Position numbers and translations under genes: made by a program. Below are positions 37,598-41,404 of a stretch of DNA of 64,000 nucleotides, one piece after another (position 1 is the stretch's first letter; each line of letters starts with the position of its first letter). The DNA comes from Tenuifilaceae bacterium CYCD (GTDB lineage Bacteria > Bacteroidota > Bacteroidia > Bacteroidales > Tenuifilaceae), in the NCBI GenBank assembly GCA_036322835.1, contig AP027304.1, positions 992,001-1,056,000 on the forward strand. Direction: 5' to 3'. The notes beneath the pieces were generated by a model. The model was not told where the DNA came from. It made no database searches and saw only the letters and a program-made list of their open reading frames with translations.

Positions 37598-37641
37598 GGG
37601 CATATGCTTATTTTTGTCATCACAATATTAAGCATATGCCC
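37598..37641. promoter_or_regulatory. Inverted repeat spanning the DUF134 start codon (candidate self-operator)
   Basis: GGGCATATGCTTA (37598-37610) and TAAGCATATGCCC (37629-37641) are perfect 13-bp arms separated by 18 bp. Each arm contains the 8-bp palindrome GCATATGC, so a dimer could bind either arm. The ATG of the DUF134 gene (37636-37638) lies in the right arm. Confidence 0.65.
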
Positions 37642-37941
37642 AGAAAGAAGTGTTTACGAAAAACCTGTATAAGCCCAGAAGCGCTCTACTACAAGCCAAC
37701 AGGCATTCCGTTAAGGCTCCTCGATGAAGTTGTTATAGAAATTGATGAGCTAGAAGCAATTCGCTTGGCCGATGCTGAAGGATTGTACCACGAGGATGCA
37801 GCCAAGCATATGGGTATATCGCGTCAAACATTTGGACGGATAGTTGAGTCTGCGAGAGGTAAAATTGCCAGTGCTCTTATAAATGGCAAGGCTATCAAAA
37901 TAAATTCACTGAGCAATCCATTCACTGAGGAAAACACATAA
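37636..37941 (+). CDS. DUF134 (UPF0251) family DNA-binding protein
   Basis: The 101-residue protein begins MPRKKCLRKTCIS, with two cysteines that could bind metal, continues with the family core EIDELEAIRLADAEGLYHEDAAKHMGISRQTFGRIV (in parts: IDELEAIRLADAEGL and a helix-turn-helix AKHMGISRQTFGRIVESARGKIA, ~residues 56-80). DUF134 proteins usually accompany NifX-like or DsrE-type proteins in anaerobes. Here the NifX-like gene follows after 28 bp. The inverted repeat that contains its start codon suggests that it represses its own operon. Confidence 0.9.
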   Translation: MPRKKCLRKTCISPEALYYKPTGIPLRLLDEVVIEIDELEAIRLADAEGLYHEDAAKHMGISRQTFGRIVESARGKIASALINGKAIKINSLSNPFTEENT

Positions 37942-37954
37942 TATCACTTAAACA

Positions 37955-37961
37955 TAAGGAG
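37955..37961 (+). promoter_or_regulatory. Strong Shine-Dalgarno (AAGGAGG) of the NifX-like gene
   Basis: AAGGAGG lies nine bases before ATG 37970. Strong SD sites are unusual in Bacteroidota, so this could reflect acquisition from another phylum. Confidence 0.6.
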
Positions 37962-37969
37962 GATTTAAT

Positions 37970-38347
37970 ATGAAAATAGCAGTTCCAACACGAGGCAACT
38001 ATGTGGATGAACATTTTGGCCATTGCGAGTACTATACCGTTTTCAGCATCGAAGATGGTAAAATCCAAAACAAGGAGATCCTAGACTCACCTCAGGGTTG
38101 CGGATGCAAATCAAACATTGCATCAATCCTAAAAGAAATGAATGTCACCACAATGTTAGCCGGGAACATGGGCGCAGGCGCACAGAATGTGCTAGGCATG
38201 CACGGTATAAACGTAATTCGTGGCTGCTCTGGCAATGTTGACGAAGTTGTAAACCATTACTTAACCGGTAATATTTCCGACTCTGGGGTATCGTGCTCTC
38301 ACCACGACCATCACCACGGTTCTGACGGTCATGTATGCAACCATTAA
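37970..38347 (+). CDS. NifX/NifB-type (dinitrogenase Fe-Mo cofactor-binding) protein
   Basis: The 125-residue protein has the RNase H-like NifX fold: MKIAVPTRGNYVDEHFGHCEYYTVFSIEDG (in parts: DEHFGHCEYYTVF), then CGCKSNIASILKEMNVTTMLAGNMGAGAQNVL, and VIRGCSGNVDEVVNHYL. A His/Cys-rich tail (~residues 108-125, SHHDHHHGSDGHVCNH) suggests metal or Fe-S binding. No nitrogenase genes are nearby, so the role is not nitrogen fixation. The DUF134 partner and the convergent sulfur genes suggest iron-sulfur or sulfur handling. Confidence 0.9.
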   Translation: MKIAVPTRGNYVDEHFGHCEYYTVFSIEDGKIQNKEILDSPQGCGCKSNIASILKEMNVTTMLAGNMGAGAQNVLGMHGINVIRGCSGNVDEVVNHYLTGNISDSGVSCSHHDHHHGSDGHVCNH

Positions 38348-38354
38348 AAAAGAA

Positions 38355-38415
38355 TGTCATTTCGAACGAAGTGAGAAATCTATACAATAGATTCTTCGCT
38401 TCGCTCAAAATGACA
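38355..38415. repeat. Interspersed palindromic (REP-like) element between convergent operons
   Basis: The 27-nt arms 38355-38381 (TGTCATTTCGAACGAAGTGAG...) and 38389-38415 (...TTCGCTTCGCTCAAAATGACA) are inverted copies with five differences and a 7-nt spacer. It fills the space between two convergent transcription units and could terminate both. Similar TCATTTCGA...TCGAAATGA palindromes are known to me from Bacteroidota genomes as dispersed elements. Confidence 0.7.
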
Positions 38416-38431
38416 ACTAAGCAACAAAAAT

Positions 38432-38935
38432 CTAAGTAAAAATAATCTGGGTTCCCTCACCAGCAGCCAACTCGTAGAACTGGCCAATGGTGATTATATC
38501 CTTTACGTGTTCGCTGAAATCTTCCTTCTTCAACCCGAACATTTCAACCGCTAGTTTGCAGGCATATATTTCGCCACCGCCTGCAGTTATAAGTTCTAGA
38601 AATTCATCAACCGGAGGAATATCTAGTTTCTCCATTTGACTTTTCATCATAGCAGAAACACCAGCCTCTACCCCAGGTATCATACCCAAAATTGTTGGGA
38701 AAGGAAGCCCCCCGGGCATTCTTAAGCCAGGATTTCCAACTGTTCCGGTATGTAATTTCTTCATCTGTTTCTTGGTAATTGCATCAAGGCCAAAGAAAGT
38801 AAAGAATACCTTTGCCTCAATTCCTTCCATAACGGCACCATTAGCCATTACAAGCGCAGCATAAACATCCTCGATGCTTGCCTTTGCGCATATTATCATT
38901 ACCTTCTTTATGGGATGATCAATTGTATTTGCCAT
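38432..38935 (-). CDS. DsrE2-type sulfur carrier protein
   Basis: The 167-residue protein has the DsrE2 layout: KVMIICAKASIEDVYAALVMANGAVMEG (Cys16 region), VFFTFFGLDAITKKQM, HTGTVGNPGLRMPGGLPFP, and YACKLAVEMFGL, where the conserved Cys (~128) can carry sulfane sulfur. DsrE2 proteins take persulfide from rhodanese, TusA or SQR in sulfur-oxidising systems. The gene is last in a three-gene minus-strand operon (SQR-like, DsrC-like, DsrE2). Gap to the DsrC gene is 56 bp. Confidence 0.88.
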   Translation of the reverse strand: MANTIDHPIKKVMIICAKASIEDVYAALVMANGAVMEGIEAKVFFTFFGLDAITKKQMKKLHTGTVGNPGLRMPGGLPFPTILGMIPGVEAGVSAMMKSQMEKLDIPPVDEFLELITAGGGEIYACKLAVEMFGLKKEDFSEHVKDIITIGQFYELAAGEGTQIIFT

Positions 38936-38991
38936 AATTATTGCTTTACAAATTATTATCCAATGTGATATCTTATCTCTTGTGTCTTATA

Positions 38992-39303
38992 CTAAACACA
39001 ACTCGTTGGTTTTGCCACACCGGCAATTCTGCTCGCTTTTTTAAGAGGAGCGCCAGGGAACAATTCGTAAAATCCTTTTGTATCTATAACTCCAGATTTT
39101 CCGATGGTACGAATAGTTAAAGCCTCACCCTTAAGTACTTTTTCTCGAATGTAATCAATTACAGCATAGTGCTTGTCGGTAATTTCGATACCTTCCTCTT
39201 TAGCAATTTCTGCTGCAATTTCCTTAGTCCATTGACTAGCATCGGTTAAATAACCATCCTCGGTTACATTTACCGATTTTCCTGCATAAACTTTTTCTGC
39301 CAT
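38992..39303 (-). CDS. DsrC/TusE-family sulfur-relay protein with one cysteine
   Basis: The 103-residue protein has the DsrC fold (GYLTDASQWTKEIAAEIAKEEGI, KHYAVIDYIREKV) and the C-terminal arm RIAGVAKPTSCV. Cys102, the penultimate persulfide-carrying cysteine, is present. The second cysteine of true DsrC, 11 residues upstream, is Ser (SRIAG). This makes it a TusE-like single-cysteine carrier, unable to form the DsrC trisulfide. It sits between the SQR-like and DsrE2 genes, so it probably accepts sulfur from one of them. Confidence 0.9.
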   Translation of the reverse strand: MAEKVYAGKSVNVTEDGYLTDASQWTKEIAAEIAKEEGIEITDKHYAVIDYIREKVLKGEALTIRTIGKSGVIDTKGFYELFPGAPLKKASRIAGVAKPTSCV

Positions 39304-39351
39304 AACCTATAGTTTTATTAATTAGTTTATTGATTATATGGAACATTTGGA

Positions 39352-40584
39352 TTAATCTGCCTTTTTTCCGCTCATACTCATTGCTGAGCTAACCGGCAAA
39401 TGCTTCCCTTTGATTAGAATATACCAGTAAATATATTTAAATGCCAACTTCCCAAAATGATTTAAGCGTGTATTCTTTAAAAGTTTCATTGGCCCCACAA
39501 CGGGAACTGGATACGAGCCGGGTAGAGGCTCCGTGTCATAATTAAAATCAATTAACGATCCCTTACCAAAGCCCGTTTCAATAAAGCAATTTGAGTGCCC
39601 ATCAAATTTAGCTTCCAATGGCTTACCATTAATTGCCGATAGAATATTTTCATATACAACGTCAGCTGCAAAATGGACTACAGAACCCGCTTTTGAGGTG
39701 GGAATATTGCTGGCATCGCCTAGCACAAATATATTATCCCATTTCTCAGAACGTAGCGTAAATTTGTCAGTAGGGATGAAATTCAAATCGTCCCCCATTC
39801 CACTTCGGGCAACATAATCTGCACCCATGTTTACAGGAATTGAAGCAAGAACGTCAAAAGAAATTTCTCTACCATCGTAGGAAATCAACTTTTTATTCTC
39901 ATCGTCAACGCGCTCTAAGTAGAAATCAGGTACAATTTCGATATTTTTCTGTTTTAATAGTTCGCCTAACATGGCCGTTGCCTTGGGCTTGGTAAATGCT
40001 CCAGATAGTGGAGTTGTGTAAAAAATGTTAACCTTATCGCGAATTCCCTTCTTTGTAAAGTACGCATCGGCCAAAAAAGCAAACTCCAATGGAGCAACCG
40101 GGCACTTTAAGGGTAGTTCGGCTATATTTATCACCAAGTTTCCACCTGTCCAATTCTTTAGATAGTCGTGAAATGCAACAGCCCCTTCGTAAGTATAAAA
40201 GTCAAAAATACTTTTATGCCATTCTCTGCCCTGTAATCCAGGGGTTTCAGATGGTTTAATATCTGTTCCAGTTGCAATAATTAAGTAGTCATACTCTAGT
40301 GTTTTTCCATTACTTAAGAAGACTTTTTTTAAGTCTGGCTCTACTCTATCAATTTCTGCAAGTATAAAATCTACACCCTTTGGTATAAATTTCTTCTTTA
40401 GCTTGCTAACTGTATTCTTCTTATAGATTCCAAAAGGGATAAATAAGAAGCCTGGCTGGTAGTAATGGGTTGGCTCTTTATCCACAACGGTTATATTCCA
40501 AGCATTGAGGTTAAGGGCTTTTTTTAATTTATTGGCCATTATTGAACCGCCCGTTCCTGCACCAAGAATTACAATCTTTTTCAT
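39352..40584 (-). CDS. Sulfide:quinone oxidoreductase-like flavoprotein
   Basis: A 410-residue FAD protein: MKKIVILGAGTGGSIMANKL at the N-terminus binds FAD, YLIIATGTDIKP is the second motif, and VLGDASNIPTSKAGSVVHF the C-terminal FAD motif. Cys161 (LKCPVAPLEFA) and Cys333 (HSNCFIETGFGKG) align with two of the redox cysteines of SQR; the third, expected near residue 128, is absent. The tail (LKLLKNTRLNHFGKLAFKYIYWYILIK) is amphipathic, as in membrane-attached SQR. It probably oxidises sulfide to persulfide with quinone, or reduces it in reverse. It is first in the SQR-DsrC-DsrE2 operon and divergent from the FNR gene. Confidence 0.88.
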   Translation of the reverse strand: MKKIVILGAGTGGSIMANKLKKALNLNAWNITVVDKEPTHYYQPGFLFIPFGIYKKNTVSKLKKKFIPKGVDFILAEIDRVEPDLKKVFLSNGKTLEYDYLIIATGTDIKPSETPGLQGREWHKSIFDFYTYEGAVAFHDYLKNWTGGNLVINIAELPLKCPVAPLEFAFLADAYFTKKGIRDKVNIFYTTPLSGAFTKPKATAMLGELLKQKNIEIVPDFYLERVDDENKKLISYDGREISFDVLASIPVNMGADYVARSGMGDDLNFIPTDKFTLRSEKWDNIFVLGDASNIPTSKAGSVVHFAADVVYENILSAINGKPLEAKFDGHSNCFIETGFGKGSLIDFNYDTEPLPGSYPVPVVGPMKLLKNTRLNHFGKLAFKYIYWYILIKGKHLPVSSAMSMSGKKAD

Positions 40585-40673
40585 TATTTTTGATTTTTAG
40601 ATTACTCGTTATTTTCTTTTAACATATATCTGTTTTATAATTAATTATTATAGCTTTACAGGTATTGTTAAAA

Positions 40674-40694
40674 ATCAAGTTTGATAAATATCAA
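40674..40694. promoter_or_regulatory. FNR-type operator (perfect TTGAT-N4-ATCAA)
   Basis: TTGATAAATATCAA at 40681-40694 is a perfect FNR box, 14 bp before the FNR-like start and 97 bp from the SQR-like start. An adjoining ATCAAGTTTGAT (40674-40685) overlaps it as an everted half-site pair. Confidence 0.75.
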
Positions 40695-40708
40695 AATATA
40701 TAGATACG

Positions 40709-41404
40709 ATGAGAGATGTTTGCCCCAGCTCAAAATGTACTGATTGTGGTTTTCGCTCTACAGTTTTTGAATCACTCAGCGATAATCAACTTGATATGCT
40801 TACCGAAGGAAAAACTTTCAATGTTGCTAAAAAGGGGACAGTAATTGCAAAGCAAGATGAAGTTATTGAAAATTTTATTTTTCTGAGGGTTGGCCTCGCT
40901 AAGTTAACAAGAACCACCGCTGATGGCCGCGAACAAATTGTGGGAATTGCAACTCCCAAAGATTTTGTTGGACTTCTGAGCGCTTTCTCTTCTAAAACCT
41001 ACCAATATTCAATTATAGCAATTGAAGACTCCGAGTTCTGTAGCGTTAACTACAATACTATAATAGACCTAATAAGCAATAATGGAATTTTCGCCAAAAG
41101 TTTGCTCGAAAAAATATGTAGCGTTTCCGACACGCTGATCAATACTCGCCTCGATTTAGATTTGAGACAACTAAGAGGCAGGGTTGCTTTTATAATTTGC
41201 TACTTTGCTAACGAGGTTTACAATTCGACAAAATTCAATCTCCCAATTTCGCGCAAAGAAATAGCTGAACTTATAGATATGCGGGTTGAGAATGTGGTTA
41301 GAATCCTTTCCGAACTTCGCCGCGATAACATTATCAAAATTGAGGGAACAACAATAGAAATAATAGACCAGGCAAAACTAAAATGGATAAAGGTTCACGG
41401 ATAA
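40709..41404 (+). CDS. FNR/CRP-family regulator with candidate [4Fe-4S] cysteines
   Basis: The 231-residue regulator has an N-terminal cluster motif with Cys5, Cys10 and Cys13 (DVCPSSKCTDCGF), a cyclic-nucleotide-type beta-roll, and Cys111 (AIEDSEFCSVNY), aligned with Cys122 of E. coli FNR. These four match the oxygen-sensing [4Fe-4S] ligands. The C-terminal winged helix (ISRKEIAELIDMRVENVVRILSELRR, ~residues 190-215) has recognition residues E-x-x-V-R. It should sense oxygen or nitric oxide. The FNR box immediately upstream suggests autoregulation and control of the divergent sulfur operon. Its stop is one base from the mlaF stop. Confidence 0.9.
   Translation: MRDVCPSSKCTDCGFRSTVFESLSDNQLDMLTEGKTFNVAKKGTVIAKQDEVIENFIFLRVGLAKLTRTTADGREQIVGIATPKDFVGLLSAFSSKTYQYSIIAIEDSEFCSVNYNTIIDLISNNGIFAKSLLEKICSVSDTLINTRLDLDLRQLRGRVAFIICYFANEVYNSTKFNLPISRKEIAELIDMRVENVVRILSELRRDNIIKIEGTTIEIIDQAKLKWIKVHG

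Follow-up and report, generated by a model that had tools for sequence, protein, structure and literature searches.

A recurrent gene module of type III sulfide:quinone oxidoreductase, DsrC and DsrE2 in Bacteroidota and its possible role in passing on sulfur

Introduction

The fate of sulfur after sulfide:quinone oxidoreductase (SQR) is an open question in bacteria without dsrAB, and it is raised by a locus in the genome of Tenuifilaceae bacterium CYCD (assembly GCA_036322835.1; one contig, 3.92 Mb, 97% complete). The stretch analyzed here, the window, comprises 64,000 nucleotides of contig AP027304.1 (positions 992,001 to 1,056,000), and features are numbered from its first letter. On the minus strand of the window, genes for a type III SQR of 410 amino acids (aa; 39352-40584), a compact one-cysteine DsrC/TusE-family protein (38992-39303, 103 aa) and a DsrE2-family sulfurtransferase-like protein (38432-38935, 167 aa) follow each other, separated by 48 and 56 bases. 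A gene for an FNR-like regulator (40709-41404, plus strand; PF00027 and PF13545) is divergent from SQR, and genes for DUF134 and NifX-like proteins are convergent on DsrE2. All six genes, listed in an earlier annotation made from the sequence alone (the original prediction), were recovered in place by family-profile matches.

We assign a probability of about 0.6 to the reading of this locus as a sulfide-oxidation operon under the FNR-like regulator, from which sulfane sulfur would enter a DsrE2/DsrC relay. Every part of the module belongs to a known family; the module may represent an undescribed route for passing on sulfur, and no account of an SQR-DsrC-DsrE2 operon was recognized in the literature searched, which lay mostly outside subscription journals.

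Recurrence of the Module

The relatives considered are the best 80 SQR matches of at least 585 confirmed stretches from one scan of species genomes. In all 74 loci where the sequence extends far enough (1.5 kb or more), DsrC is encoded downstream of SQR; for DsrE2 the count is 68 of 68, at 2.3 kb or more. Co-occurrence was counted in a phylum sample of 198 evenly drawn genomes, where DsrC was found in 55 and an above-cut-off SQR in 54: 53 genomes have both, two have only DsrC (G219 and G244), one has only SQR (G126) and 142 have neither (Fisher p 1.4e-44, without correction for relatedness). Labels with L and G denote loci and genomes of the samples, G000 being the window's own genome. One family, f50, accounts for 34 of the 53 genomes, and its two-cysteine DsrC has another explanation. 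Without f50, both genes are present in 19 genomes, DsrC alone in one and SQR alone in none (11 families); 19 of the 20 DsrC genomes thus have SQR, and the distance between the genes is at most 0.9 kb in 19/19. In the same sample, G077 and G132 have SQR matches at 365 bits, under the cut-off, and no DsrC.

SQR, DsrC and DsrE2 form a real recurrent module, beyond chance, because the gene order recurs. The treatment of the three as one unit in the original prediction is borne out by both adjacency and phylum-wide co-occurrence, and the search for a recurrent gene neighborhood in other genomes, proposed there as a check, gave a positive outcome for this trio. The module is small (three to four proteins) and spread over many Bacteroidota families; the nearest named SQRs are those of uncultured Bacteroidales. 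Cultured carriers include Draconibacterium sediminis (L049), where DUF1641 (see below) is encoded as well, and Marivirga sericea (L084).

Sulfide:Quinone Oxidoreductase

The window SQR scores 643.9 bits with NF049943 (type III, selenoprotein subtype; cut-off 525). It contains exactly two cysteines, C161 and C333, located at the two positions that mark type III SQRs (about 159 and 331-339) and unchanged throughout two SQR alignments, of 15 and 16 sequences. The original prediction remarked on the presence of two of three catalytic cysteines; this is no oddity, two being normal for type III SQRs (PMC10989961, PMC13047784; here and below, statements from cited papers refer to the portions of text available). 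A type III SQR in E. coli removed H2S and raised sulfide tolerance (PMC10989961). NF049943 is listed in a review with an HxxU motif (PMC13188914), and H330-x-x-C333 of the window SQR fits this position as the cysteine form. No internal stop codon, indicative of the selenocysteine form, was present in any above-cut-off NF049943 match of the genome scans.

Human SQOR is the best Protein Data Bank (PDB) match of the window SQR by sequence (E 7.6e-48) and also by fold (template modeling score 0.79-0.80 for a predicted SQR model with a predicted local distance difference test score, pLDDT, of 77.1). Both C161 and C333 are aligned with SQOR cysteines, which we take to be its catalytic pair. Characterized SQRs oxidize sulfide, and sulfide is presumably also the substrate of the window SQR.

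DsrC and DsrE2

The window DsrC was identified by PF04358 (91.7 bits) and TIGR03342 (75.6 bits, cut-off 53.5). Its single cysteine is the penultimate residue (C102 of 103 aa), kept in 84 of 85 module copies, and the site of the second C-terminal cysteine is occupied by serine. The missing second cysteine, also remarked on in the original prediction, is no oddity either: among DsrC relatives from genomes without DsrAB, this site is nearly always Ala, Ser or Thr, and sulfur is bound by DsrC at the penultimate cysteine only (PMC3397948). The protein is not a dissimilatory DsrC, lacking the second cysteine in a genome (single contig, 97% complete) where a search for the sulfite reductase family (PF01077) found nothing, and it falls short of the E. 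coli-type TusE equivalog, with a PRK11508 score of 60.1 bits at a cut-off of 191. Relative to E. coli TusE and the f50 DsrC, the protein lacks 5 residues in one place and 4 in another; f50 DsrC has both cysteines in 30/30 copies examined. Some DsrC chains, presumably of the Desulfovibrio type, are about equally short (105 aa).

DsrE2 scores 91.6 bits with PF13686 (cut-off 25) and 94.8 bits with NCBIfam NF047629, under the equivalog cut-off of 210. Of its two cysteines, C126 is conserved in 81/83 copies and C16 in 70/83. In the relay of Allochromatium vinosum, sulfur moves from DsrE Cys78 to DsrC Cys111, Cys100 being dispensable (PMC3397948); Cys111 corresponds to the residue kept in the window DsrC, and an equivalent of Cys100 is absent. 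A persulfide relay from SQR to DsrE2/DsrC would be the natural reading of these genes.

Alternatively, SQR could be a lone detoxifier releasing polysulfide, with DsrC and DsrE2 forming a TusE-type biosynthetic relay (e.g., for tRNA thiolation) that shares the operon. This would agree with a DsrC that has the TusE-type cysteine only and with the membership of DsrC and DsrE2 in known carrier families. However, the DsrC score is far under the TusE equivalog cut-off (60.1 vs 191 bits), and outside f50 DsrC tracks SQR genome by genome, which is unexpected for a housekeeping tRNA relay; we consider such a shared operon unlikely.

Regulation

A divergent FNR-like gene is located upstream of SQR in 45 of the 72 loci with upstream room. 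Cysteines C10, C13 and C111 of the FNR-like protein align with C20, C23 and C122 of E. coli K-12 FNR and are kept in 55, 56 and 56 of 56 sequences, respectively; an equivalent of C29 is absent, and an additional C5 is present. We assume that the 4Fe-4S ligands of E. coli FNR are C20, C23, C29 and C122, three of which have equivalents here. The module regulator is probably of the oxygen-sensing type, and the module may respond to oxygen.

The intergenic region shared by SQR and the divergent FNR-like gene contains an FNR-type box, TTGATAAATATCAA (40681-40694), the only perfect TTGATN4ATCAA in the window (0.28 expected). Perfect boxes were found in 8/84 upstream regions, namely those of the window and its close kin, compared with 0.08 expected from dinucleotide shuffles. 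Where a divergent FNR gene is present, 33 of 46 regions contain the core TGATN4ATCA, compared with 4/30 where it is not; mononucleotide shuffles gave expectations of 0.32 and 0.19, respectively (four of the 80 upstream regions, shorter than 170 bases, were excluded from this count). Together, the divergent FNR-like gene and the conserved box suggest dedicated control of the module.

A genome-wide FNR regulon is not claimed: perfect boxes number 25, with 7 for the reversed-pattern control. Among 15 sites inspected, 11 are intragenic and four intergenic, with a gene start within 350 bases for two, this locus and L129. At L129 (G000, about 696.7 kb), an intergenic TTGATATATATCAA site lies 203 bases 5' of a gene judged by eye to be PiT-family-permease-like.

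FNR-type control would also suit the reverse direction, in which, under anoxia, DsrE2/DsrC would deliver persulfide or polysulfide to the SQR-like enzyme for reduction to sulfide with menaquinol. The window's genome has a cytochrome bd gene and no haem-copper oxidase match, fitting a mostly anaerobic cell, and PhsA/NrfD-like reductase genes occur near the module in some relatives. Against this direction stands the oxidation of sulfide by characterized SQRs. Moreover, the type III SQR in E. coli removed sulfide (PMC10989961), and A. vinosum DsrC returned no sulfur to DsrEFH (PMC3397948), which makes sulfide production by the module improbable.

Proposed Mechanism

In the sulfide-oxidation reading, which we prefer, the type III SQR would oxidize H2S on C161/C333, and electrons would pass via FAD (flavin adenine dinucleotide) to quinone. 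Sulfane sulfur would be transferred from SQR to DsrE2 and then to the single C-terminal cysteine of DsrC, in a relay by proteins instead of polysulfide release only; the order and direction of these transfers are putative. Candidate final acceptors encoded in the genome are three TusA-domain proteins and a DsrE2-TusA-Hdr/Qmo-like locus.

Several observations weigh against this scheme. First, the 80 loci are best matches only and span SQRs of at least 60% identity. Second, SQR and DsrC of f50 are never adjacent; the nearest gap is 1.7 kb, in 3/34 genomes, and many pairs are on different contigs. Third, DsrEFH and DsrC of A. vinosum took no sulfur from glutathione persulfide or thiosulfate (PMC3397948), so direct transfer from SQR would be new. 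Finally, the divergent FNR gene that the original prediction joined to the module, and that accompanies it in the 45 loci mentioned above, is lacking in the other 27 of the 72, and the box is compatible with both activation and repression.

DUF1641 and the C-Terminal Region of SQR

In most relatives, a gene of about 225 aa, overlooked in the original prediction, lies between SQR and DsrC, at the site of the 48-base junction of the window (39304-39351, minus strand). It was assigned to DUF1641 by Pfam in two of three cases scanned, and by sequence clustering it was recovered in 64/80 loci. Judged by the length of the SQR-DsrC gap, the gene is present in 69 of 85 rows and absent from 16 (L040, L056 and L061 were scored as DUF1641-bearing from gap length alone). 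Excluded from the bearing group were L083, L098, L116, L020 and L022, as fragments, loci at contig ends or a weaker relative. Of these, L083 and L098 do carry the gene, close to the contig end. The gene is absent at the module in the window, G017 and G005, and present in two same-genus genomes. A profile built from relatives did not find DUF1641 in the 64 kb window; the same search covered 15 other loci without the gene, L032 as positive control, and L170/L171. The Pfam DUF1641 model had no match in the window's own genome; since the relative at L032 also escapes this model, the genome may contain a diverged copy beyond the window.

An SQR tree was built from 87 rows by a quick method and contains some long branches (L116 and L020 omitted, their SQR being incomplete). 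It shows at least five switches between presence and absence of DUF1641 and does not distinguish gains from losses. With sister and outgroup rows hand-picked from the tree, SQRs of the 16 rows without DUF1641 are 1.11-1.52 times farther from outgroups than their sisters, the same ratio being 0.95-1.28 for DsrC and 0.90-1.43 for DsrE2. At best, SQR alone would show this extra divergence, and then only in groups A to C.

Departures were counted at sites conserved in DUF1641-bearing SQRs, in residues 330-410 (C part) and 1-329 (N part). For the groups without DUF1641, the C and N values are 0.208 and 0.056 in group A, the window's own (p 3.1e-9), 0.132 and 0.072 in B (p 0.25), 0.170 and 0.029 in C (p 0.0015), 0.167 and 0.097 in D (p 0.00024), and 0.170 and 0.105 in E (p 0.12), these p values being rough, as rows within a group are non-independent. 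The means for DUF1641-bearing rows are 0.014 (C) and 0.018 (N). C-part departure is at least 0.132 in all 16 rows without DUF1641 and at most 0.094 in all 69 bearing rows. The C/N ratio is 3.7 in group A, 5.9 in group C and 1.6-1.8 in B, D and E.

This pattern of constraint provides a lead on DUF1641, a Pfam domain of unknown function, hinting at a contact with the C-terminal region of SQR; it is a good lead, not a result. In lineages that encode it, DUF1641 may bind to the C-terminal part of SQR, where it could couple the enzyme to the membrane or to quinone. Four points speak against such a contact: by C/N ratio only two of the five groups (A and C) stand out; the most diverged DUF1641-bearing SQRs (L101, L086, L091, L102, L103, L085 and L097) have ratios of 1.3-2.1, matching those of groups B, D and E; the DUF1641 model is poor (pLDDT 55.8) and unfit for a fold search; and two segments of the SQR model, residues 348-372 and 390-410, have pLDDT values under 50. 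It is conceivable, but on balance doubtful, that type III SQR in Bacteroidota and their relatives usually consists of two subunits, with DUF1641 at the C-terminus of SQR for membrane/quinone coupling, that its sulfur is passed to DsrE2 and one-cysteine DsrC, not to a small molecule, and that the window lineage dropped the subunit and re-tuned the SQR C-terminus.

The one solved relative of the module DUF1641 found by profile search (E 1.3e-5) is ForE1/YjgD (PDB 8rqz). A model of YjlC-YjlD (PDB 9a63), with YjlD labelled NADH-dehydrogenase-like, surfaced in the SQR fold search. We take all of these to be B. subtilis proteins. YjlC is annotated as DUF1641 in a related Bacillus (PMC12020853).

Other Sulfur and Redox Genes

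One of the three TusA domains in the window's genome belongs to a long protein whose front part resembles CoA-disulfide reductase; rhodanese- and DsrE-like stretches of this protein were read by eye. The original prediction noted the absence of dsrAB and hdr genes. For dsrAB this agrees with the lack of a PF01077 match in the genome; Hdr-like genes do exist elsewhere in it. The genes at about 3.524-3.529 Mb of G000 are FlpD-, HdrA-, HdrA2- and QmoC-like, and HdrC/B/A-like genes lie 4.6 kb further. With seven Hdr/Qmo-type proteins of the genome as queries, the window gave one weak match (E 2.4e-4), in the SQR frame. In the surrounding locus L170 (about 3.517-3.537 Mb), a Crp/FNR-type gene is divergent from DsrE2, TusA, FlpD, HdrA-, HdrA2- and QmoC-like genes; most of these are under their NCBIfam cut-offs.

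In the window's genome and 59 relatives, QmoC-like matches (E <= 1e-30) and above-cut-off SQR occur together in 14 genomes, SQR only in 6, QmoC-like only in 7 and neither in 33 (p 1.1e-4, uncorrected, only two QmoC-like matches being above the family cut-off). The Hdr/Qmo-like locus was rejected as a general acceptor, being present in only 2/19 SQR genomes of the phylum sample outside f50.

YeeE-type (PF04143) transporters were found in the flanks of 11/80 module loci, and a PhsA-like molybdoenzyme (match below the NCBIfam cut-off), NrfD and rhodaneses in 8/80 each, within the flanks fetched. Varying combinations of sulfur and redox genes, including those for PhsA-like molybdoenzyme, DsrO-like ferredoxin, NrfD, paired YeeE-type transporters, rhodaneses and cytochrome b/Rieske, lie near the SQR module in L049, L050, L053-L056, L058, L060, L064, L074, L080-L082, L086, L087, L099 and L104.

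Neighboring DUF134 and NifX-Like Genes

The genes for DUF134 (37636-37941, plus strand; PF02001, 79.6 bits) and NifX-like (37970-38347, plus strand; PF02579, 77.3 bits) proteins are neighbors outside the conserved module. The NifX-like protein has a His/Cys-rich tail with a metal-binding look. The NifX and DsrE2 genes converge on a long, imperfect hairpin (38355-38415; -27.8 kcal/mol, z -7.35), presumably a terminator; this palindrome occurs once in the window, and two same-genus loci have an exact 18-base piece of it in the corresponding position.

The original prediction included the pair in the module and hence linked the latter to Fe-S assembly. Membership was rejected: the pair is near the module in 1/80 relatives, L099, some 5 kb past DsrE2; of the 80 loci, 51 have at least 5 kb downstream of SQR. 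Nevertheless, a relay feeding Fe-S or metal-cofactor assembly via these neighbors would be in line with their position beside the operon in the window and in two loci of the same genus, with a distance of 2.9 kb in a third relative, and with a second DUF134/NifX group, ParA-like gene included, beside the DsrE2-TusA-Hdr-like locus L170, on the side opposite to its HdrC/B/A-like genes. In addition to the single occurrence among the 80 relatives, the pair was not found within about 7 kb of flank in two same-family loci (L115 and L118), and in the window it is convergent and set apart by the strong hairpin; such a role is very improbable.

Comparison with Known Systems

The window system resembles the A. 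vinosum DsrEFH-DsrC relay in combining a DsrE-family donor with the penultimate DsrC cysteine, and differs in having DsrE2 instead of DsrEFH and in lacking DsrAB and the second DsrC cysteine (PMC3397948). With the YTD cluster and type II DsrEFH of cable bacteria and sulfate reducers it shares a type III SQR together with YeeE-like and DsrE-like proteins in the organism, whereas the DsrE-type proteins and the gene set are different, and DsrAB is present there (PMC13047784, PMC13293266). The window SQR is close to the NF049943 selenoprotein subtype, with a score well above the cut-off and HxxC in place of HxxU, but has no selenocysteine; the available text of the review that lists this family does not mention an operon with DsrC and DsrE2 (PMC13188914). 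In YjlC-YjlD, a DUF1641 protein is modelled with an NADH-dehydrogenase-like flavoprotein, whereas in the module the partner would be SQR, and the window lacks the DUF1641 gene. Finally, human SQOR is a type II enzyme that hands sulfur to small molecules, whereas protein carriers are encoded beside the window SQR.

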